From: Candidatus Methanomethylicota archaeon
GTDB taxonomy: Archaea; Thermoproteota; Methanomethylicia; Culexarchaeales; Culexarchaeaceae
DNA length: 64,000 nt
NCBI GenBank assembly: GCA_020833005.1
Contig: JAJHRD010000001.1
Coordinates: forward strand, 135,423-199,422
Direction: 5' to 3'
The translations under genes were made by a program, and so were the position numbers. Every line of letters begins with the position of its first letter. The first letter of the stretch is position 1. Shown here in pieces: positions 40,331 to 59,323 of this stretch. The notes under the pieces are model-generated. The model saw nothing but the letters and a program-made list of their open reading frames with translations, had not been told where the DNA came from and made no database searches.

Positions 40331-41832
<1,502 letters not shown>

Positions 41833-41843
41833 AAGTTATAAAT

Positions 41844-41870
41844 GGGGGGCCATGAGTGGGGATTGGGTCC
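41844..41870 (+). other. 16S processing stem, 3' half, with bulge-helix-bulge
   Basis: GGGGGGC, CATG, AGT bulge (41855-41857) and GGGGATTGGGTCC pair with 40275-40301 as described there. Confidence 0.9.
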
Positions 41871-41878
41871 ATTAAATA

Positions 41879-41940
41879 TGCAATCTGAAGGGGAACCCCT
41901 TCAGATGAAGGGCGAAGGGGGTTATACCCTTATGATCGCC
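41879..41940 (+). other. 16S-23S spacer with perfect hairpin; no tRNA
   Basis: The short spacer contains ATCTGAAGGGG and its inverse CCCCTTCAGAT separated by AA, a strong hairpin. There is no spacer tRNA-Ala, unlike euryarchaeal rrn operons. Confidence 0.85.
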
Positions 41941-41987
41941 ATGCATAGTTGGGAACGTTAATTGGCATATTTTGCAAGTTATGCCAC
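41938..41987 (+). other. 23S processing stem, 5' half, with bulge-helix-bulge
   Basis: GCCATGCATAGTTGGGAA, then CGTT (41956-41959), bulge AAT (41960-41962) and TGGCATATTTTGCAAGTTAT onward. Pairs with 45044-45093; a nearly perfect 43-bp stem. Confidence 0.93.
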
Positions 41988-45036
<3,049 letters not shown>

Positions 45037-45043
45037 ACCCGAG

Positions 45044-45093
45044 GTGGCATAACTTGCAAAATATGCCAAACGATATTCCCAACTATGCATGGC
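45044..45093 (+). other. 23S processing stem, 3' half, with bulge-helix-bulge
   Basis: GTGGCATAACTTGCAAAATA onward, AACG (45069-45072), bulge ATA (45073-45075) and TTCCCAACTATGCATGGC pair with 41938-41987. RNase P RNA begins six bases later. Confidence 0.93.
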
Positions 45094-45098
45094 AATGT

Positions 45099-45431
45099 GG
45101 GGGGTGAGTGGTGGAGCAGGCGCCGGGCAAGGAGTGTACTCCTTGCCTGAGGAAGCCCACCCCCATTGTGGCACCGCAACCCCACTTATAGGGGTAGGAT
45201 GAGAATCCTAGCGTGGCACAGAAACGACACCCCTTCCAGCTAGATGAAGATGATGTAGCATAGGCCTTGTAAAAGGCCGAGCAAGCTATTGATGAGGCTG
45301 GAAGATTGGTTGCAACGGCCAGCTTGCGGGGGTAAGGCCAAAAAGGAGCCTATGAGGGCCACATGAGGCTCGGGTAGGCCGCTTAGACGAATCCTGCTAA
45401 AACAAAAGGTGGGCTACCACCACACACCCCC
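45099..45431 (+). ncRNA. rnpB: RNase P RNA (archaeal type A)
   Basis: Catalytic RNA that makes tRNA 5' ends. P1 is GGGGGTG-A-GTGGTGG at 45100-45114 pairing with CCACCAC-A-CACCCCC at 45417-45431, with one A-A mismatch. P3 is GGCAAGGAGT/ACTCCTTGCC. P4 is formed by AGCCCACC after GAGGA (near 45155) and GGTGGGCT near 45408. Conserved blocks CACAGAAACGACACC (near 45217) and TTAGACGAATCC (near 45383) match the universal cores. 333 bases. It lies only six bases beyond the 23S processing stem and abuts the Tsr3 stop codon on the other strand. Confidence 0.93.
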
Positions 45432-47838: not shown

Positions 47839-48557
47839 AGTATATATAATGCAAATCGTATTGAAGCTTCTCTAAAACGGAATTCTTACACTATACATAG
47901 TCGCAATGTAAGACTTCTTTCCATATTGTAGATGTAACCACTGGAATAGAATCATACAAATATACGATCTACACTTATACCTACAAGACTTTCGGTTAAT
48001 ACCTAAGAAAGCCAAATTACACGAGAACTTGATCGTGCATTTTTAATATGGAAAGATGAAAATTATGAATATATTTTGAAGCAAATTGATGACATACTTA
48101 GCTTTGATCGTAGCTTATTTTTCAGGACCTAGCTTTACAAAGTAAAATCTGAATCTACTTAAAGTGTAAAGCAGTCGAATACATGAATCGCAAACATAAG
48201 GTTCAGGTCCTGCTTTGAATACATGAGCAATCCTCCTCCTTTTTACACCACTGAAACCCCATACTTTATATAATTTTTGAGAGCATACCAAGAGCATTAA
48301 CATGTTTACCCGGAATACTTACTCAGGTCTTTTTTGCTCTAAGAGCGGCCCCTCTTTTTCCACTGGAAATAAAAGTTGATATTCTTGAAAAAGTTGTAAA
48401 TTTAATGTTTCGAATATTTTTGACTAAAATATCTAACATTCTTTATAAAAAGCATTATATATTAATTAAACCTTTTAACTAATAGAGTATTTATTCAACA
48501 TATAAACCAAAAGTAATTAATCAGAGTATTTTCCAATAGAAATTAAGGGGTGCCCCC
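47839..48557. other. Gene-poor 719-base gap
   Basis: No intact gene seen. It holds a likely decayed gene fragment (47912-48132), including one copy of a diverged repeat (47975-47993), and a minus-strand 62-codon ORF at 48115-48303 with basic, CxxC-containing sequence (VCDSCIRLL) that I cannot support as a gene. Confidence 0.6.
47912..48132 (+). pseudogene. Possible decayed gene fragment
   Basis: Two overlapping open stretches in different frames look like one broken coding region: one reads IYDLHLYLQDFRLIPKKAKL and ends at 48046, the other (from 48007) reads RELDRAFLIWKDENYEYIL and ends at 48132. Neither has a plausible start. The LYLQDFxLI segment recurs in a relic at about 51.9 kb on the opposite strand. 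Origin unknown. Confidence 0.28.
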
Positions 48558-48863
48558 TTGTCGTATATTGACATTGAAAGAGCACAAAAACTGGCACAAT
48601 TCGTTCCATTAAATGAAAGAGTAAAATTACTCAACTTAGTTATCGATGCTTGTGGTGGTAATATTTCAAAGGCCGCAAAAGAAATTGGAATAACCCGTGC
48701 CCAAATATATCGGTATGTAGGAAGAACTGAAAGAAAGGACCTGCCATCTGATGAAATATTTGCAAGGATAATAGTAGCTGCATACCGCCTTAGACCGTTA
48801 CAAACGCAAGAATTCTTTAGATTCATATTAAAGCAGGTTAGGGATCTCTTTTCAAGAATTTGA
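48558..48863 (+). CDS. Small helix-turn-helix protein (Fis-type HTH)
   Basis: 101 residues. A clear HTH, ISKAAKEIGITRAQIYRYVG, is at about 35-54 within a helical protein; it resembles the Fis/NtrC C-terminal and resolvase HTH. The C-terminal 40 residues are helical and arginine-rich. Start is TTG at 48558 with AAGGGGTG five bases upstream. The TatD gene follows 27 bases later on the same strand, so they are probably one operon. Target unknown; dyad repeats just beyond tatD are candidate sites. Confidence 0.78.
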   Translation: MSYIDIERAQKLAQFVPLNERVKLLNLVIDACGGNISKAAKEIGITRAQIYRYVGRTERKDLPSDEIFARIIVAAYRLRPLQTQEFFRFILKQVRDLFSRI

Positions 48864-49657: not shown

Positions 49658-49679
49658 TATGGTTCCATATGGAATCATA
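49658..49679. repeat. 22-bp dyad repeat, copy A
   Basis: TATG-G-TTCC-ATAT-GGAA-T-CATA, six bases after the tatD stop. A full dyad except for the fifth position. See the finding on the family. Confidence 0.75.
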
Positions 49680-49737
49680 GACCATGATAAAATTCATGAT
49701 GGCGATTCACCATTCGCTTCAATTTTCTCATTAGATT

Positions 49738-49759
49738 CATAGTTCCATATGGATACATT
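49738..49759. repeat. 22-bp dyad repeat, copy B (degenerate)
   Basis: CATA-G-TTCC-ATAT-GGAT-A-CATT, 80 bases after copy A. Confidence 0.6.
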
Positions 49760-50390
49760 TACTTATCAAAAAGGCTTTAATGTAGTAGTTTATGTTCTAT
49801 ACATGATGAACTATGATTGTAATGTTCACAGATGTTTCAATTTCAATATATAAATTTTTCTATCATAAGCATCATGAAATAAAATGCCCATAATGAAGTT
49901 AATGTTAACTGACATCATCACCAAAAACATTTTTTGATTTTATAGATCTAGGTTACAACATTTGCTTTAACCAAATCAGTTTGTTAATAGTTCACTGTTT
50001 AGTCAAAGTTATTTGCTATCCACTTTACCTAGGATTTAATGGTGATATCTTCCTTAAATTTTATCAATTTTTATCCTAATATGCCTCCATCTTTTTGAAT
50101 ATTTCTAATAATTGGATGTCAACAGTCGAACCCCATAATTTCCAATGGAATTTTGAAAAAAAAGGAAAAAATACTATTTAAACTCTATTTGGTTTTCTGA
50201 AATAATTTAATACCGATTTTTTGGCAGAAAAACTTTATTTTTCAAAAAGCGTGATTATATTTATCTTTTAATTATATTCATACTGACGTAAACACTGATT
50301 ACAGAAAAGTAACTTTTATATTTCCCTTACTTTCCATATATTAATGTTTCTTCATTTCTATTAGCTCAGCATGTTTGGAGGTGTATAACA

Positions 50391-50822
50391 TTGGTGCATG
50401 GTTCAAGGAAGGGAGGGAAATGGTTATTGCAGTATACGTCTCCTGACGGTAATAAAATCACGATCTCTATTGAAGGATCCTTTGATGTTGAGAAAATAAA
50501 GCAATTGGTTGAATTGATTGAGTTGACAGGGCTTCCTAGTGATAATTATTCTCAAAATGAAATCACAGATGTTAACATATCACATAAAAGGAATAGTATC
50601 AAAGAGTCGCTGATAATATTGCTGGAGAAAGAGTTTAAAGATCGTTGGTTTACTACGAAGGATGTTGTTGACGCATACTATAGGTATTATGGGGAACGAT
50701 TACCTTTGAATACTGTTTCATCTTACTTATCAAGATTAAATCGCTCAGGGATTTTATCATGTAAAGGGTCTAGAATAAACCGTATGTACCGTATTTCTCT
50801 TGAAGCATCAAATTCTATGTGA
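50391..50822 (+). CDS. Winged-helix-like regulator, unknown function
   Basis: 143 residues. An N-terminal beta strand pair (RKGGKWLLQYTSPDGNKITI) precedes helices around FDVEKIKQLVELIEL, and the C-terminal half (residues 70-135) is winged-helix-like: LLEKEFKDRWFTTKDVVDAYY, LPLNTVSSYLSRLNRSGILSC. Start TTG at 50391, seven bases after GGAGGTG; a GTG three bases on is nearly as good. Convergent with another HTH gene. No family name recognised. Confidence 0.75.
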   Translation: MVHGSRKGGKWLLQYTSPDGNKITISIEGSFDVEKIKQLVELIELTGLPSDNYSQNEITDVNISHKRNSIKESLIILLEKEFKDRWFTTKDVVDAYYRYYGERLPLNTVSSYLSRLNRSGILSCKGSRINRMYRISLEASNSM

Positions 50823-50851
50823 TTATGTGATTTAAAGTCACTATTTCACAT
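50817..50851. terminator. TGTGA/TCACA stem between convergent HTH genes
   Basis: ATGTGATTATGTGA then TTTAAAG then TCACTATTTCACAT folds into an imperfect stem overlapping the stops of the two convergent regulator genes. It could act as a bidirectional terminator or as an operator; it shares TGTGA boxes with two more clusters downstream. Confidence 0.4.
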
Positions 50852-51449
50852 CATTATCTACTATAATATACTGTTTTATTTTATCAGGGACTATATACTT
50901 GTATGGCCAGCTTTTTTCATCCCTTAACAATATGCCTTCATCTGCAAGTTTTTTCAAAAGTCTACTTACATGCTCCCTGGTTTTCCCTATACGTCTAGCT
51001 AGTGCTGTTCCACCCCTGATATCGGGGTTTTTTGCAAGTATGCTTATTATTTGTTTTTCGGTTTCGGTTAAAGTATTTATTTTATTTATTATTTCTTCAC
51101 CAGTTTTCTCTTCTTTTGTAGGCGTCGCTATTTTCTTCTCCTTTATTTCTTCGACTGTTTCCCTTGGTTTTTCAATGATCGGTTTTTCACTATAACTCTT
51201 TGGGCGTATGGATATAGCGGGTCCTCTACTCCTTTCCTCATAAGCACCAATGTAATCACGTAACAGGTCCTCTATTCTGCGCATCCTACTAATTATAATG
51301 TTTAAATTTTCTTCCAAGTTCTCAAGTCTCTCTTCTAGCATCCTTATCCTTGAAAATTTTCTGTTAATTAATTCTAAATAGGCTATAATTTCCTTGTAGG
51401 ATTCTTCAATACTGTTTGTACTTTCTCTTTTTTGGTGTTCTTCACTCAT
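50841..51449 (-). CDS. Coiled-coil winged-helix transcription regulator
   Basis: 202 residues. A coiled coil in about 10-75 (EEHQKRESTNSIEESYKEII, ENLNIIISRMRRIEDLL), a charged linker, then a MarR/ArsR-like winged helix at 130-200: LTETEKQIISILAKNPDIRGGTALARRIGKTREHVSRLLKKLADEGIL (given as the S/T-rich HTH). The coiled coil suggests a dimer. Its promoter region faces the 1.8-kb gap with TGTGA boxes, possible autoregulation. No specific family name. Confidence 0.8.
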   Translation of the reverse strand: MSEEHQKRESTNSIEESYKEIIAYLELINRKFSRIRMLEERLENLEENLNIIISRMRRIEDLLRDYIGAYEERSRGPAISIRPKSYSEKPIIEKPRETVEEIKEKKIATPTKEEKTGEEIINKINTLTETEKQIISILAKNPDIRGGTALARRIGKTREHVSRLLKKLADEGILLRDEKSWPYKYIVPDKIKQYIIVDNDVK

Positions 51450-51664
51450 ATTTACATCTATATGATTTTTATATCACTTCTTATTTAAAGCTCTTTTGGA
51501 TGAAACGTTACATTCATCACAATATATCCTATTCTACTTCAATATTCTGGGTAACTAAAAATAACTATTATGTGAATTTTTATTGGATCCCCCCTATCAA
51601 TCATCATCTACCAGTATCTCCCTCTAATTTAATTAACATAAATTTATGGTCTTCAGATATGATC

Positions 51665-51700
51665 GTCACATGAATGTGATACAACGTATGTGACTGTCAC
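51665..51700. promoter_or_regulatory. TGTGA/TCACA box cluster
   Basis: GTCACATGAATGTGAT and GTATGTGACTGTCAC form inverted boxes, similar to those at 50817 and 53009. Candidate operator for a nearby HTH protein. Confidence 0.35.
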
Positions 51701-53008
51701 TTATTTGTGGTATATTTACTGCTGATCATATATAACATCTTGAACTTTACCACGACATCCACTATGTTATACCGTTTAAAATACTACTCAATAACTCTAA
51801 AAAACATGCTTGGAGATTAGTATGTTAATCATGCGTTGACATCTTCAATTACCCTGGCACTCTTTTCTGCTGTATTCTGAACTTTCATAATTTAACATCC
51901 TTTTAATACTTTTAATATTAAATGCTGGTACAGCCTCGTAGATATTAATAGAAAGTCTTGTAGGTATAAAGCGTATCTTAATTTAACTTTTGATATTATT
52001 ATTAAAAATTTTATTCTAAAACTTTAAAACATTTACTTTACTAAAGTTAGAGAATGATAACAACTTTTCCTTCACGTTTTCAATGATCTTTCTTTTATAA
52101 CAGTGTTTCACTATTTATGGTCCTCTATTCTATAATGATTTTTATATTGTGATTTGGAACCACCCCAGATATAAATTGGTGTAATAACTGATCAATAATG
52201 TATGCCTGATTCAAGTTAAATCTTATAATAAATAAAAAATTTTGATTTTAATGCATTCATTCTCAATTTCTCTCTTCTAAGCCACTTTTTAAACATTAAT
52301 TTGTATAGTAAATATGAAGAATGACGATCTAAGTCTCCCTTGGCTGGAGTTTTTAGTAATGATGTTGCTATACTTAACTTCATAATGAATGCATAGCCAA
52401 ACTTTGCTTAATTATGCATTCTTAGAAATTTCAGGGGGTATGTGTATATGCATGTACATTTCTGAAGTACTTGGTTAAAATTTAATGAAATCTTCAGGAA
52501 TTCCTAATTAATTCATAAGTCAAGCTCAATAAGATTTTTATTTAAATGTCTAGGATGAGTATTTGATCATGTCGAAGAACTTTCTTGGCTCAACTATTAA
52601 AATATACTTAAGAAAATAACTCCAGGGTTTATGTCAGTAACATGCCTATTAAGAAGGCTTCTAGATACTGTTTCCAAATTAAGGTTGAAATATTAAAATT
52701 GATATGATGATTTTTTAGTTTACTTAGACGCAACTAATTCTTCTCATAACTTAAGTTTACTATTCATACCAGAAAACGTTGAAATGATTTTCACAATTAA
52801 AAAGTAGTGTACGTTATGAATGTTATTAAGTTCAAGGTGAAGGATTGCTTGCAATCTTCAATAAGGTTTATTGCCTCTGCTAATTCTACATCTTACATGA
52901 TAACATCAAAGGTGTTTATACATCCTTGTTTATTACGAATTATTATAATGTCATTGCCAAATATCAAATCGCAAATAGGTCAACGAACATAATTTAAACT
53001 ATAATTAA

Positions 53009-53060
53009 TGTGATAAAAAGGTGATATGTGACATCAATGTGACTAGAAATCACATCAATT
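53009..53060. promoter_or_regulatory. TGTGA/TCACA box cluster
   Basis: ATGTGAT, GGTGATATGTGACATCA, ATGTGAC and ATCACATCAAT follow each other within 52 bases. See the finding on these boxes. Confidence 0.35.
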
Positions 53061-53101
53061 TATCGCTATCATCATTTTATGATAAATAAATTAAAACTTT
53101 A

Positions 53102-53184
53102 CCTAATTTAGGTGGTCATTAACCAAGTCAGGTCCTTCGGCAAGAGAAACGTTGCTGTTAGGATGTGACGTCATCTAAATTAGG
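53102..53184. ncRNA. Candidate structured RNA
   Basis: CCTAATTTAG (53102-53111) pairs perfectly with CTAAATTAGG (53175-53184). Inside, GTCA pairs with TGAC, TTAA with TTAG, and CGGCAA with TTGCTG around the loop GAGAAACG, leaving a 14-base one-sided internal loop. No known family recognised; strand unclear. May be transcribed behind Sec61 beta (minus) or separately. Confidence 0.35.
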
Positions 53185-53285
53185 AGCTGCTTATATGCAA
53201 TGGGACAATGAATGGATAAATGCATTTTACTACTTTACCTTTACCTTCTTCTTTAATAATTACTATCTTCCTTATCTTTTTATAT

Positions 53286-53468
53286 TCATATTTTTATGAA
53301 CGAAAGAATGCCCATGTTTCCCATTATAATCACTATGATGAATATCATGGTTATTATTACTATTTGTAATGGAGTGATCTTTATTCCCTTCATTTCCTCC
53401 TCGAAAAAACGTATGAGCCCCGCCCCTGTGACGGGCATGTACGTGCTGTCTCTCTTCTTCTTTGGCAT
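53286..53468 (-). CDS. secG: Preprotein translocase subunit Sec61 beta (SecG-like)
   Basis: 60 residues: MPKKKRDSTYMPVTGAGLIR, then FFEEEMKGIKITPLQIVII and one TM segment IITMIFIIVIIMGNMGIL. This is the archaeal Sec61 beta tail-anchored subunit of the translocon. ATG at 53468 gives the family N-terminus MPKKK; an ATG nine bases upstream is less likely. Divergent from the MazG-like gene, with the intergenic region shared. Confidence 0.93.
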   Translation of the reverse strand: MPKKKRDSTYMPVTGAGLIRFFEEEMKGIKITPLQIVIITMIFIIVIIMGNMGILSFIKI

Positions 53469-53543
53469 CTTTATCATTTATTATCAAAGCTCCTTTGAAG
53501 ATAAATATTTTTTTATCATTATTCTAATATTATGCGATGAAAC

Positions 53544-53831
53544 ATGAACTTAAATGATGCTCAGGATATGATAAGAGCCCTATATTTCAACAAAGATAGT
53601 CTAAGAGGATTGGAAAAAACCTTCATATGGTTCATCGAGGAAGTAGGAGAACTTGCGAAAGCATTGAGAAATGGATCAAAAGCTGAAATCAAAAGTGAAA
53701 TTGCTGATGTGTTTGCTTGGCTTATTTCCATAGCTAATCTCTTGAATATAAACTTAGAAGAAGCATTTAAATCAAAGTATAATTCATATTGTCCTCGCTG
53801 CAAACAAAATCCATGTATATGTCCAATATAA
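53544..53831 (+). CDS. MazG-like nucleotide pyrophosphohydrolase
   Basis: 95 residues. Helical fold with the metal motif EEVGELAKAL (ExxE) and EIADVFAW (ExxD), and the C-terminal CPRCKQNPCICPI, which probably binds zinc or stabilises the tail. This short archaeal form hydrolyses nucleoside triphosphates to monophosphates, so house-cleaning is plausible. Divergent from Sec61 beta. A dyad repeat begins three bases after the stop. Confidence 0.9.
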   Translation: MNLNDAQDMIRALYFNKDSLRGLEKTFIWFIEEVGELAKALRNGSKAEIKSEIADVFAWLISIANLLNINLEEAFKSKYNSYCPRCKQNPCICPI

Positions 53832-53833
53832 CA

Positions 53834-53866
53834 TATGTTTCCTATAGGAACCATAAAATAATAATG
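53834..53866. repeat. 22-bp dyad repeat, copy C, in a 33-bp direct repeat
   Basis: TATG-T-TTCC-TATA-GGAA-C-CATA followed by AAATAATAATG. Identical over 33 bases to copy D at 54909. Confidence 0.85.
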
Positions 53867-54040
53867 AAAAATCCCATAGTTCAAATCATCATCTTAAGTA
53901 AGAACAAAAAATTATAAAAGGATTAAAGTGTCATAGATTATTTGAACAATTATTTCGATTGAAGTTGTTCTGTTACAATTAGAAAAACATGGACAATATA
54001 ACATGTAAGAGGTGAATAATTAGGGAGTGGGGGGAAGTAT

Positions 54041-54889
54041 ATGTATGAAAAATTATGCGTTAAGGATTTAATGACAAAAAATGTGATATATTGTGAGGTG
54101 CCAAGTACAAGAACGGAAGTTTTGTCAATAATGAAGAAACATAAAGTTACATGTTTACCTGTTGTGAAGAAAGGCACTAGAAAATTGGTTGGATTAATTA
54201 CTCGCTTTTCTTTCTTGGAGAAACCTTCTGAGGAGCAAACAGCACTAGTAATGATGCGAAATCCTTTACATATTTCTCCTTCAAGTAGCATTAAAGATGC
54301 TGCTCACCTTTTTGTTAAGCATAATATTAGATATCTCCCGGTTATAGATCAAGATGAGTTAGTGGGAATAATAACAATTAGCGATATTGTTTATAAATTA
54401 CTCACCAATGGTATGTTCAACTATCCTATAAGAGAATTCGTGGAAAGAAAGGTTCTTGCTGTATGGGATGCAACTCCGATCAATGTTGCATGGAAAATTA
54501 TGGAATTATCAAAAGTGCCGACATTGTTAGTTATAAACACAAGACTTGAAGTTGTGGGAACATTCTCAATTTCTGACATTTTTAATCATGCTGACATTAT
54601 AATGAGTGAATACAAGTCTTCATTAAAGGCATCAGTTGAAGGTCAAGAATGGGATTGGGATTCTTTAACAATTATATACATTGGTAGCAAAAAACTTACG
54701 CTCCCTGAAAAACCGATAAGTGAAATAATGTCGCGTAAAGTTAATGTTGTGAGGGAAGAAACACCAATAAATCAATGTGCTAAAAAAATGAGGGACCTAG
54801 ACACTCATTTACTCCCAGTGGTCGACATTAATGGTAATCTTATTGGAGTCATTAGCGATTTTAATCTCATTCAATTCCTTTTGAAATAA
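54041..54889 (+). CDS. Four-CBS-domain protein
   Basis: 282 residues made of four CBS motifs (about 5-60, 68-125, 135-195 and 225-282): VKDLMTKNVIYCEVPSTRTE, MMRNPLHISPSSSIKDAAHL, IREFVERKVLAVWDATPINV, ISEIMSRKVNVVREETPINQ, with the recurring LPVVDxxGxLxGVISDF pattern. Such tandem CBS proteins sense adenosine nucleotides. No enzymatic partner domain. Flanked by the identical repeats C and D. Confidence 0.92.
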   Translation: MYEKLCVKDLMTKNVIYCEVPSTRTEVLSIMKKHKVTCLPVVKKGTRKLVGLITRFSFLEKPSEEQTALVMMRNPLHISPSSSIKDAAHLFVKHNIRYLPVIDQDELVGIITISDIVYKLLTNGMFNYPIREFVERKVLAVWDATPINVAWKIMELSKVPTLLVINTRLEVVGTFSISDIFNHADIIMSEYKSSLKASVEGQEWDWDSLTIIYIGSKKLTLPEKPISEIMSRKVNVVREETPINQCAKKMRDLDTHLLPVVDINGNLIGVISDFNLIQFLLK

Positions 54890-54908
54890 ACGACAATTCA
54901 CACAGTTT

Positions 54909-54941
54909 TATGTTTCCTATAGGAACCATAAAATAATAATG
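54909..54941. repeat. 22-bp dyad repeat, copy D, in a 33-bp direct repeat
   Basis: Same 33 bases as copy C, 1,075 bases away, lying between the convergent CBS and PolD genes. Confidence 0.85.
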
Positions 54942-54962
54942 CCAAAATTATATTTCATAATT

Positions 54963-57900
54963 TCATACCAAAAAATCAACAATCTTTGATTGCTTCCCCC
55001 TCTCACTTTTCTCAAATAACAATTGTATTTCTTTTTTAATCAAATCTAGCCTTTGCTTATAATAGACTGGCAAATTGTATTTTGCAACTAAGTTTTCGGC
55101 GAAGGCCATGTATTTCATTATATTACTTTTATGGACTGTTAATGAAAGATTTCCTCCGCATTTTTTACATTTACCCGAAAGAGGAGGTCTGATGTATTTT
55201 GCATTGCACTTTGTACAGCGTACAATTTGTGTGGAAAATGCTCTCAGATTTCCCATAAGGTCTGGTATGCAATGATGTTGTAAAACCCTTTCCACAACGT
55301 CCCTAACATTGACTGCACGAATTTTTTCAGCCATCTTAATTTGGAGAATTATTTTTTCATTCATTGTTCTTAACTTTTTATATGCTGAAACCTTTGGTCC
55401 TTTGTCAATATATGTTGTATCTATTGTGAACTTTAAGTCTTCGTATTGTGATATTTTCCCCAATCTATCCTTCACTTTTTCAATGATTTCACTTACAGTT
55501 TTAGGATCCGCATTTGTTAATGTTTTCTCATAAAATTCAGTTGGATATTTACTACATACTTCCATGTTAAATACTTCATCATCAACTTCATGTGGATCTA
55601 TAATTAGAGTTACAACAAGTGGTGCATCCATGTATCCTCCCACCTTTTCTGGTAAGTATGTTTTAGAAAAATTCAAAAATGCATCTAAAGCTAAAATTAT
55701 TGAATCTTCGTCTCCATCACAATTTCTTCTCTTTGCCGCGTGCCAGTATGGATGAGCAAAACATACTTTAGCATCTGTAATACCTATTATCCTGCCAATT
55801 ACGCCACATGAAGTATGCGGTGCCAAACCGATGACTACATGTCCTATTATATCTTCCCTCCTTTTTATGTTATAAAAAGGTTCGGTCTTATAATATCTAA
55901 CAAGTAATTCGTCGATGAATTTAGATACTTTAACTAAATAATCTGCTGCTTCTACTGGTATTATAATGTCTTGTACCTTTAATTCAAGTATTTGTTCATC
56001 ACTTTTTAATTCATTTCCATAAATATCCTTTGTATATCCCAATTCCTTCAATTTCTCAATTGAAGTTTTTATCTCCTTTGGTTTGAAATGTGTTAATGGA
56101 GCGTTTGTGGCATCAAACCTTACAGTTCCATCTTTATAGACAAACACATCATGTTTTGCTCTTAGAATTCCTTTTTCAAGAGGTTCTGGTGTTTTATGTT
56201 TGTTCATTAACTTCTTTACTCCTTTAACTATTCTTGGGGGGGAAGTAACATCTAAATTTATACATGCTCTCTTAAGCTCTTCATACAGATCAAATATTTG
56301 TTTGCGTAATGGTATTGTTTCTTCATTACATCTTCTACATTTATCTTCAATTGTATTTAAACCGCATTTTTTGCATACTTTTACTTCTATTGTGTCTCCT
56401 CCACATTCATTGCATCTATAATATATTGTTTTCTTTCCACATTTCCCACAAACTCTAAGAGCAGCATCTATTTCAACATTTTTATTTCCAGCAGCTTCAA
56501 TTATGTTTCTATTATTCTTCCCTACTCCGACGGGAAATAAAGCATGTATTGGTGGCTTCATCTTTCTTTCTTTCGCTTTCTCAGGTCTACCCATTCTCAA
56601 TCCTATAAATGTTGGTGCAATATCTCTCATCTTAATTTTTGAAATTAAATTAATAGCTTCTAAACCATTTTTTGCCTCAAGAATCTTTTCAGAATACTCT
56701 TTTAAGCATGTTTCTAAAATTTTAAAATCTTCCTTGTTTAGAATGATCTTCCTTTTATCATGATCATATTCATGCGGCATCCATATGTCCTCCAATATTA
56801 TTTTCACTTTTTGATCGTAATCTAAGGCCACATTATTTGGATCTATGTATTCTCTTGTTTCATTTAAAATCCAATTCCTAAGATAAAGTACATCGCTGGG
56901 GCTTATTCCCTTCCAATAATATGAGTAAATTGGATGTAAAGGAACTTCTAATTCCATAGCAATTTTTATTGCTTCTTCAGCAGATGGTTTGACATTATTA
57001 TAAATAATATCCTCCAATCTTTCCTTACTTATTCGTATTTTTGATTCTAAGACACTTAAATTGTTATTGTACTTTTCTTTAACTTTCAACAGTACTTCCC
57101 CACTCCACCATTGCTCATCATAACCAGCTGGCAAAAGTTGGCAATTGTTTTCTAAAAAATCTCCATATGATATTAGTATATCCCCTAAAAATATTATCTC
57201 CTTTACTTTGTCTCTAGCCTTTTCAACGTCAGTTTGAGATGATATTCTAATTACACTTCCGTCAGTTAATTTTACTATAGGTCCCCATATAGTGTCAACA
57301 GACATTACTAAACCACTTTTCCCTGGAGTTTCAGTTTTAACTTGTGTACCAATTGCTAAGAAATCTCCTAAAATAGCCATAGTATATGGATTCAAACCTA
57401 TAGCTGCTATTCCTGTGTTCCTACTCCTACCATACCTTAACCTAAATCCCCCTACCCTTGATGGATGTGCAAATATAGGCCTCCCAATTATAACGTCTTC
57501 TAAATATTTTTCGTTAACCCCTTCTTCGCCTTCATCCTCCTTTTTGCTTATTTCTGATAACCATTCCCACCCTTGAATTCCTATTGATTTCACAATTTTC
57601 ATTAATTTTGAAGCTTTCCCAAGGACTCCATCATTTATTACTCTACATGCCCCCCCACGCAACTTATTTGTTTCAACTCGAGGTAAATCACGATTTACAC
57701 TAACTTCAATTTGAGTAGTAGGCAATCCAGTGACTTCAACAGGTATTCTCCTTACAGCTTTCTCTATTTCTTCTTCGCTATTATGGTATTGAAATTTCCC
57801 AACATATTTTTCATATAATCTTATTTCTTCTACGTATCTTTTTACTTCATTATCAGTAGGTTTATACTTATCTAAGTGTAAAAGTTGCCTAATATAATCT

Positions 57901-58391
57901 GCTATAAATACTGTTAGTGCTTGCTCCGTACCACCTGCAGACCTTATTGGTCCTGCATAATAAACAGCTAGATACTTTGTCCTATCATGATTCTTCTTTA
58001 TTTTTACATTATTTATTCCTTGAATTGGCGCAGCCGTTATTCCTTCAGTTAGTATGGCAAGTGCTGCCCTCAAAGCTATTTCTGCGCGCTTCTCAATATC
58101 AAAATCACCATATTTGCCATATACTATTTCCTCAGCTATTTTTAATGCAACTATTTCCTTGCTATTATTTTTTAATAATTCGTTTATTCTTTCTGATATC
58201 TTTGTAACCCCATATTCAGCAAGCAATCCTTCAACTCTTTCTGCAAGATTATTTGCCAAATATATTTCACATTTTTGTGAGGGATCAAAACTATTCTTCT
58301 TAACCTTATTCGCTATTTCATATAATTCTTTGACTTTAAGTTTAAGGTTATTAAAATATTCCTTATACGAATCACTCATCAAAACATACAT
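54963..58391 (-). CDS. polC: DNA polymerase D large subunit (DP2)
   Basis: Polymerase subunit of PolD, 1,142 residues with no intein. N-terminal KH-like and double-psi-barrel core: YAGPIRSAGGTEQAL, GRPIFAHPSRVGGFRLRYG, RNTGIAAIGLNP, NCDGDEDSIILALDAFLNFS containing the catalytic aspartates (GDED), CKKCG zinc-binding pairs near 675-705, and a second cysteine cluster CTKCNAKYIRP...CKKCGG near 1070. The C-terminus SKIVDFLV is a likely PCNA-interaction box. The small subunit is at 5.6 kb, so the genes are unlinked. Confidence 0.97.
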   Translation of the reverse strand: MYVLMSDSYKEYFNNLKLKVKELYEIANKVKKNSFDPSQKCEIYLANNLAERVEGLLAEYGVTKISERINELLKNNSKEIVALKIAEEIVYGKYGDFDIEKRAEIALRAALAILTEGITAAPIQGINNVKIKKNHDRTKYLAVYYAGPIRSAGGTEQALTVFIADYIRQLLHLDKYKPTDNEVKRYVEEIRLYEKYVGKFQYHNSEEEIEKAVRRIPVEVTGLPTTQIEVSVNRDLPRVETNKLRGGACRVINDGVLGKASKLMKIVKSIGIQGWEWLSEISKKEDEGEEGVNEKYLEDVIIGRPIFAHPSRVGGFRLRYGRSRNTGIAAIGLNPYTMAILGDFLAIGTQVKTETPGKSGLVMSVDTIWGPIVKLTDGSVIRISSQTDVEKARDKVKEIIFLGDILISYGDFLENNCQLLPAGYDEQWWSGEVLLKVKEKYNNNLSVLESKIRISKERLEDIIYNNVKPSAEEAIKIAMELEVPLHPIYSYYWKGISPSDVLYLRNWILNETREYIDPNNVALDYDQKVKIILEDIWMPHEYDHDKRKIILNKEDFKILETCLKEYSEKILEAKNGLEAINLISKIKMRDIAPTFIGLRMGRPEKAKERKMKPPIHALFPVGVGKNNRNIIEAAGNKNVEIDAALRVCGKCGKKTIYYRCNECGGDTIEVKVCKKCGLNTIEDKCRRCNEETIPLRKQIFDLYEELKRACINLDVTSPPRIVKGVKKLMNKHKTPEPLEKGILRAKHDVFVYKDGTVRFDATNAPLTHFKPKEIKTSIEKLKELGYTKDIYGNELKSDEQILELKVQDIIIPVEAADYLVKVSKFIDELLVRYYKTEPFYNIKRREDIIGHVVIGLAPHTSCGVIGRIIGITDAKVCFAHPYWHAAKRRNCDGDEDSIILALDAFLNFSKTYLPEKVGGYMDAPLVVTLIIDPHEVDDEVFNMEVCSKYPTEFYEKTLTNADPKTVSEIIEKVKDRLGKISQYEDLKFTIDTTYIDKGPKVSAYKKLRTMNEKIILQIKMAEKIRAVNVRDVVERVLQHHCIPDLMGNLRAFSTQIVRCTKCNAKYIRPPLSGKCKKCGGNLSLTVHKSNIMKYMAFAENLVAKYNLPVYYKQRLDLIKKEIQLLFEKSERGKQSKIVDFLV

Positions 58392-58493
58392 AATTCATCC
58401 ATCTAATTAACAATATCTAAACTATAATTAATTTTTCATTACTCTTGATCTTACATTATAACTTAATTCTTTTAAATAGATGTGTTTAATGTT

Positions 58494-58515
58494 TTTGATT
58501 CCTATAGGAACCATA
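58494..58515. repeat. 22-bp dyad repeat, copy E (half degenerate)
   Basis: TTCC-TATA-GGAA-C-CATAAAATAAT is identical to copies C and D over 24 bases, but the left arm reads TTTGA. Located 40 bases beyond the GGGPS stop codon. Confidence 0.7.
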
Positions 58516-58555: not shown

Positions 58556-59323
58556 TCACAATAAATATTCATTTTTGTTACGAATACTTTTTATTATTTC
58601 CTTTATACGTTTGCCGTTTCCTTCTTCTATTAATGTCCCCGTAACGATTATGTCTGCTCCTGCCTTAACAGCATTGATGGCTTGATTTACTGTTCTTATT
58701 CCGCCACCTACTATTACTTTTCCCTTAACTACCTTCTTCACAGCATGTATAATTTCTGGAGGTACTGGTTCTTTAGCCCCAGAGCCTGCTTCCAAATATA
58801 TATACCGCATTCCAAGATAGTTTCCGGCTAACGCATACATTACAGCTATTTCTGGTCTATTATATGGTATTGGCCTAGCATAGCCTATATATCCTGCTGC
58901 ACCTCCTTCTCCAAGTATTATGTATCCCATCGGTATAGCCTCAAGTCCATATCTTTCAACTATTATTGCCCCTTGAGCTTGTGCATCAATTACATAATAT
59001 GTGTTAGATGAGTTTAAAAGTGACATAAACCATATGGCGTCTGCGTATCTACTTATTCCTGAAACATTCCCTGGAAAAAGTATTATTGGTACATCTTTTA
59101 TTTCCTTTTTTATGTTAAGTATTATATCATCAAGATTTCTTTCACAAACTCCAATACTACCTCCAATCATTATTGCTGAAGTCCCTGCTTCCACAGCCTC
59201 TTTTACATGAGTTATTATCTTTAGATTTACTTTATCTGGGTCTATCAAAGTGATGTGTATCGCTCCTTCTTGCTCTATTCTTTCAACAAGATATTTTTCT
59301 ACCTTACCAATTCTTATGTTCAT
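58556..59323 (-). CDS. Geranylgeranylglyceryl phosphate synthase (GGGPS, group II)
   Basis: Adds geranylgeranyl pyrophosphate to sn-glycerol-1-phosphate, the first ether bond of archaeal lipids. About 255 residues: ITLIDPDKV, AIMIGGSIGV, PIILFPGNVSG, YIYLEAGSGAKEPVP and VGGGIRTVNQA (phosphate loops of the TIM barrel). ATG of MNIRIGK preferred (GGAAAGG upstream). It overlaps the end of the Elf1 gene by 20 bases, so the two are co-translated. Works with EgsA at 32.9 kb. Confidence 0.95.
   Translation of the reverse strand: MNIRIGKVEKYLVERIEQEGAIHITLIDPDKVNLKIITHVKEAVEAGTSAIMIGGSIGVCERNLDDIILNIKKEIKDVPIILFPGNVSGISRYADAIWFMSLLNSSNTYYVIDAQAQGAIIVERYGLEAIPMGYIILGEGGAAGYIGYARPIPYNRPEIAVMYALAGNYLGMRYIYLEAGSGAKEPVPPEIIHAVKKVVKGKVIVGGGIRTVNQAINAVKAGADIIVTGTLIEEGNGKRIKEIIKSIRNKNEYLL

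Follow-up and report, generated by a model that had tools for sequence, protein, structure and literature searches.

Four conserved palindromes beside a predicted chromosomal replication origin in Candidatus Culexarchaeum

The element described here is a set of four 22-bp palindromes (dyads) of the consensus TATGnTTCCwwwwGGAAnCATA, encountered in a 64,000-nucleotide stretch of DNA (hereafter the window) from a Candidatus Methanomethylicota archaeon of the genus Ca. Culexarchaeum (GenBank assembly GCA_020833005.1, contig JAJHRD010000001.1, positions 135,423 to 199,422), and its closest described counterparts are DNA sites of chromosome-segregation and replication-origin proteins. In Pseudomonas aeruginosa, the main parS cluster comprises four oriC-proximal palindromes (PMC4368675). 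SegB of the Sulfolobales, an archaeal chromosome-segregation DNA-binding protein, has the consensus TCTAGA-S-TCTAGA; in S. solfataricus, 46 motif sites are spread along the chromosome, mostly in genes (PMC12284271). For origin recognition boxes (ORBs), Ori-Finder 2 gives the common motif TCCA[CG]T[TG]GAAA[TC][GA]AAGGGGT (PMC4164010). Finally, the ucm of Sulfolobus origins is an 11-bp element inside the duplex-unwinding element (DUE), whose binding protein UBP binds hundreds of genomic sites (PMC12141716).

Like the parS sites of ParABS systems, the Culexarchaeum dyads are a few near-perfect palindromes near an origin, lying within 1.1–10 kb of a predicted ORB pair in four genomes; unlike parS, they have a different sequence, are all intergenic and are restricted to one genus, which moreover lacks a consistent ParB, displays only Mrp-like ParA proteins in the sister genome G001 and yielded no SMC–ScpA. 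They share their palindromic nature with the SegB sites, but are four in number, intergenic and of unrelated sequence, and do not contain the SegB palindrome. With ORBs they have in common an imperfect TTCC...GGAA dyad at an origin; however, the predicted ORBs proper (at 48349, 48529 and 50131) are separate elements standing beside them. The ORB-type TTCCANTGGAAA core with 3-bp spacing is replaced by TTCC-4 bp-GGAA in 16/16 dyad copies, AAATAATRnTG follows where ORBs have a G-string 4–5 nt after the core, and the arms bear CATA extensions. Thus, the dyads are distinct from ORBs in their 4-bp spacer, the lack of a G-string and their genus-specificity. The ucm, too, is an origin element other than an ORB and has a small binding protein of its own, but the dyads are found outside the DUE and nowhere else in the genome. 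Unlike an mRNA 3′-end or terminator element, they do not recur genome-wide after many genes. We tentatively read them, at slightly less than an even chance, as duplex-DNA sites of a putative homodimeric sequence-specific protein that would organize the origin domain in a parS-like layout.

Distribution and conservation of the dyads

A consensus scan of the window recovered exact matches at 49658, 53834 and 54909 and one with a single mismatch at 58494, against a chance expectation, from dinucleotide shuffles, of 0.15 matches on average and never four. The sites and a degenerate relative are:

49658–49679, no strand assigned: dyad site 1, TATGGTTCCATATGGAATCATA, ATAT core, 5 nt past the end of tatD (49652)
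49738–49759, no strand assigned: degenerate dyad 1b, CATAGTTCCATATGGATACATT, four mismatches
53834–53855, plus strand: dyad site 2, TATA core, 2 nt past the end of mazG (53831)
54909–54930, plus strand: dyad site 3, TATA core, 19 nt past the end of the CBS gene (54889)
58494–58515, plus strand: dyad site 4, TATA core, one mismatch, tail AAATAATGTTG

An earlier note on this DNA had proposed a family of five such sites. Four of these stand as strong sites, while the one at 49738 is only a degenerate relative; its inner CCATATGGAT is retained in 4/4 species and its outer left arm has decayed (TGCC) in G001 and G003. The identical 33-bp direct repeat that the note reported at 53834 and 54909 is present as described, and most of it also recurs at 58494. 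To the right side only, three of the dyads are followed by a common tail, AAATAATRnTG, in the same chromosomal orientation: it reads AAATAATAATG after site 2 (53856–53866) and is the same after site 3 (54931–54941). Site 1 appears inverted relative to the other three. Neighboring strong dyads are 1.1 to 4.2 kb apart, and all four lie to the same side of the ORB pair. Site 3 is placed in the gap where the CBS and DP2 genes converge. Site 4 falls between the GGGPS and DP2 genes, 40 nt past the end of GGGPS (at 58556, minus strand). Beyond dyad 1b, the noncoding DNA at 49780–49990 is unusually conserved with G002 (76–88% per 50 bp) and contains TATGTTC-N10-GAACTATG, possibly another half-site arrangement for the same binder.

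For comparison we used the genome of the window (G000, 2.23 Mb), three other genomes of Ca. Culexarchaeum (G001, G002 and G003), one of a sister genus (G004) and one of another family (G025). G001 and G003 are near-identical at the dyad locus, so the four species amount to about three independent lineages; skew and palindrome statistics were computed on the sister genome G001 rather than on the window's own. Across the whole of G000, TTCCTATAGGAA occurs three times, each time inside the window, and a search with the 22-mer at up to three mismatches returned the four dyad sites and three poor matches elsewhere, so that the strong dyads are confined to a single 8.9-kb stretch. The best match outside the cluster (C13:6292), considered as a fifth site, was rejected: it falls within a reading frame that encodes a long protein and is taken as chance. 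In G001 the four sites score 28–35 bits, and the next best match, within a gene, 18.5 bits. Further, an unbiased scan of 182 distinct exact 12-bp palindromes with four or more G/C on contig C1 of G001 (1.08 Mb) singled out TTCCTATAGGAA as the sole palindrome with three copies within 10 kb. Among 61 relatives searched at up to two mismatches, the three same-genus genomes each have exactly four sites, within stretches of 8.7–9.1 kb; at up to one mismatch over 398 genomes of the phylum, four sites were recovered in each of the 4 Culexarchaeum genomes, a single match in 5 others and none in the remainder. Viral carriers of the dyad were also considered and rejected, the four single matches in viral contigs being about the number estimated for chance.

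The four sites are syntenic in 4/4 Culexarchaeum species. Between the window and G002 their 12-bp cores are identical at 48/48 positions, as against 58% identity in the flanking noncoding DNA, and 13/22 columns are invariant over the 16 copies; the dyads are under strong selection. In every copy the central four bases are self-complementary (TATA or ATAT), and in 9/16 the arm position n places an A or T opposite a C, hence would be unpaired as RNA. Both features favor duplex DNA over an RNA stem, and we consider it highly likely that these are palindromes protected as DNA.

This bears directly on the alternative that the dyads are RNA 3′-end hairpins for aCPSF-type nucleases, or terminators, which we regard as very improbable. 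Sites 1–3 do begin 2–19 nt past stop codons, and some copies fold well: over all copies the RNA folding energies span about -5 to -19.5 kcal/mol, the best being site 1 (-19.5) and the G002 sites (-14 to -17), with some others weak at about -5. Nevertheless, one stem position is unpaired in 9/16 copies and the stem is weak in others, site 3 would need to serve two convergent genes, and there are only four copies per genome at a single locus. Rfam returned nothing at curated cut-offs in the dyad cluster, only one weak chance match. The mRNA 3′-end reading offered by the earlier note does not survive the genome-wide scan, with its four sites in 2.23 Mb at one 9-kb locus, and its 4+4 bp hairpin is not a conserved property, as the pairing is not kept. 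The closeness to stop codons that it recorded is accurate, with distances of 5, 2, 19 and 40 nt, and is accounted for by the location of the dyads in short intergenic gaps.

The same positions could suggest local operators, through which one regulator would co-regulate the tatD, mazG, CBS and polD (DP2) genes. Site 4 indeed precedes the start of DP2 by 102 bp, and site 2 that of the CBS gene by 185 bp. However, every site hugs gene 3′ ends rather than promoters: site 3 is between two convergent genes where there is no promoter, and the next start is more than 700 bp from site 1. We accordingly hold this to be improbable. Likewise, the identical 33-bp repeats flanking the CBS gene, together with the insertion of tatD as compared with other members of the class, might hint at what remains of a mobile or duplicated element, such as a cassette bounded by these repeats. 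An insertion cassette around the CBS gene was rejected, given that the gene is ancestral in the class, where the mazG-CBS-DP2 order is widespread; moreover, the dyad cores are identical while the flanks diverge, and there are no copies elsewhere in the genome, with the viral matches at about the chance level. Such an origin seems extremely remote.

The predicted replication origin

The dyad cluster overlaps a predicted chromosomal replication origin at 48.35–50.15 kb of the window, and the dyads very likely belong to the origin domain. The interpretation in the earlier note, which is partly borne out, had missed this main context. The predicted elements are:

48349–48370, minus strand: ORB-A, ATTTCCAGTGGAAAAAGAGGGG, predicted Orc1/Cdc6 box with G-string, from the held-out matrix
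48371–48528, no strand assigned: AT-rich spacer (about 80% AT) between the inverted ORBs, candidate duplex-unwinding element
48529–48550, plus strand: ORB-B, TTTTCCAATAGAAATTAAGGGG, inverted relative to ORB-A, with the G-strings outward
50131–50152, minus strand: ORB-3, AATTCCATTGGAAATTATGGGG, weaker and diverged, position conserved in the genus

With a matrix trained only on other families (held-out), the inverted pair ranked first (27.3 bits) and second (26.1 bits) in the 1.55 Mb of G001 that were covered; the next match, at 21.1 bits, is within a gene. ORB-3 ranks third genome-wide only if the matrix includes boxes of the genus Culexarchaeum. The window's ORBs resemble the published common motif (PMC4164010), which the G004 box TCCAGTGGAAATAAAGGGGT fits letter for letter. 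ORBs are found class-wide at the syntenic place, in other genera as similar inverted pairs roughly 170–210 bp apart with G-strings outward, and in the window the inverted boxes flank an AT-rich stretch, as expected of an archaeal oriC. In 16 origin loci scanned from other genera, no analogous repeated dyads were recovered besides the ORBs and two chance pairs.

Base composition and gene order point to the same place. On contig C1 of G001 the four-fold-site skews (GC4/TA4, averaged over both coding strands) switch sign in the bin that holds the cluster; the GC sign changes at 340–350 kb, with the ORBs at 341.5–343.3 kb, so that they coincide with a skew extreme as an oriC should. The opposite change is seen on contig C3, a weaker one of the same sign is at the syntenic place in G025, and within the window the cumulative GC skew peaks at 48–49 kb. 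Genes run away from the predicted origin on both sides. The strand taken as leading in G001 C1 (L029–L030, L035–L087) is C- and T-rich at four-fold sites, a GC sign opposite to that of most bacteria. Hence, the assignment as an origin depends on ORBs, synteny and the direction of genes, and not on the sign of the GC skew. With the G-rich strand to the left, the locus was also considered as a terminus, a reading disfavored by the ORBs, gene direction and class-wide synteny. Separately, transcription of the 16S–23S rRNA genes and the RNase P RNA (40331–45427) runs in the direction of the predicted origin, at a distance of 3 kb, and would meet a leftward fork head-on.

No orc1/cdc6 or whiP gene adjoins the predicted origin, helix-turn-helix (HTH) genes taking their place; the two Cdc6 paralogues of G001 are encoded about 117 and 142 kb away. 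From the conserved loci (L165, L167, L170, L175, L176, L177 and L180), we predict this to be the chromosomal oriC of the whole class Methanomethylicia, namely an inverted ORB pair beside the HTH genes h101, w143 and w202 rather than cdc6.

The location raises the alternative of initiation control, in which either an HTH protein linked to the origin or the second of the two Orc1/Cdc6 paralogues would bind the dyads and tune firing through titration, handcuffing or helicase loading, datA being a comparable example. Comparable too is Haloarcula oriC2, for which negative control by a downstream ORB cluster has been proposed (PMC4010727). The TTCC...GGAA of the dyad is shared with the ORB core TTCCANTGGAA, two Cdc6 paralogues are available, and dyad site 1 is located between ORB-B and ORB-3. 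On the other hand, the dyads have a 4-bp rather than a 3-bp spacer, an AT-rich right-hand tail and no G-string, the two Cdc6 paralogues occur throughout the class, unlike the dyads, and the 8.9-kb spread is wide for initiator sites. We therefore view initiation control as rather unlikely.

Candidate binding proteins and neighboring genes

The predicted origin is embedded in a gene neighborhood, kept in synteny at most of the loci read across the class, which comprises tiaS, h101, w143, w202, mazG, CBS, DP2 and GGGPS. Three of its products are candidate binders of the dyads:

48558–48863, plus strand: h101, a 101-aa HTH_8 protein (Fis/NtrC-type) starting directly after ORB-B, class-wide
50391–50822, plus strand: w143, a winged-HTH protein, class-wide origin neighbor
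50841–51449, minus strand: w202, whose N-terminus is coiled-coil-like and whose winged HTH resembles MarR/Crp, class-wide origin neighbor

Searches of solved structures with h101, w143 and w202 gave no informative sequence match, and at the level of fold no more than generic similarity to HTH/Fis and winged-HTH proteins. A putative dimeric DNA-binding protein drawn from the local HTH candidates, as the earlier note also suggested, would be consistent with all the evidence.

As to the other genes, tatD is particular to Culexarchaeum among the loci examined, and DP2 relatives sharing 72–96% amino-acid identity belong to Ca. Culexarchaeum nevadense and further Methanomethylicota genomes, which places the window in Ca. 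Culexarchaeum. G004, itself without dyads, retains a short CBS-gene remnant between mazG and DP2 (L164:19761–19943). A 63-aa open reading frame (MIKMPKKKRDSTYMPVTGAGLIRFFEEEMKG...) on the minus strand at 53286–53477, conserved in G002 (66–88% identical in 50-bp bins), presumably encodes a protein related to the SecG/Sec61-beta subunit. This frame and w202 are separated by some 1.8 kb of noncoding DNA with poor conservation (51450–53285, about 45% identical to G002), and a long gap between the same genes is also seen in G004.

A possible role in organizing the origin domain

For the dyads as sites that organize the origin domain, the following course of events can be envisaged: A dimeric HTH protein, most likely h101, w143 or w202, would occupy the four dyads; once bound, it would draw the freshly replicated DNA of the origin region together in a single nucleoprotein complex; and the origin DNA might thereby be organized or moved, by a logic like that of oriC-proximal parS with other proteins. 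An organizing or segregating role, as opposed to initiation control, strikes us as plausible at somewhat below even probability, and as slightly the more likely of the two.

Several observations weigh against it. ParB_N is absent from the window's genome, so that the encoded ParB expected of a parS system is missing; it is intact only in G002 (L184, G002:C30:7441), with a stop-containing fragment in G001 (L185, G001:C1:96657). Matches to AAA_31 (ParA-like) exist, but the only two in G001 have SGKGGVGKS motifs typical of Mrp/ApbC, and neither an SMC hinge nor ScpA was found in any of the five genomes. In addition, G004 has a predicted origin and all three HTH genes without the dyads; more generally, the candidate binders are class-wide and the dyads genus-specific, so that binder and site are not matched in their distribution. 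With regard to the SegAB system, the full SegB motif was not found in the G001 contigs examined, where nine 9-mer cores are scattered, and SegA was not found. The strongest form of the proposal, that these four palindromes beside a cdc6-unlinked origin are a genus-specific centromere-like element, with an origin-encoded HTH protein segregating or organizing the DNA without ParAB, SegAB or SMC, is doubtful.

To our knowledge, how origins are marked and moved in archaea outside the Sulfolobales is largely unknown. For this question, the locus supplies a single, defined DNA element, along with a few candidate proteins and an exact chromosomal location for testing. At the same time, our analysis predicts the origin of a whole uncultured class (Methanomethylicia/Culexarchaeia), which would be linked to three conserved DNA-binding proteins and not to cdc6.

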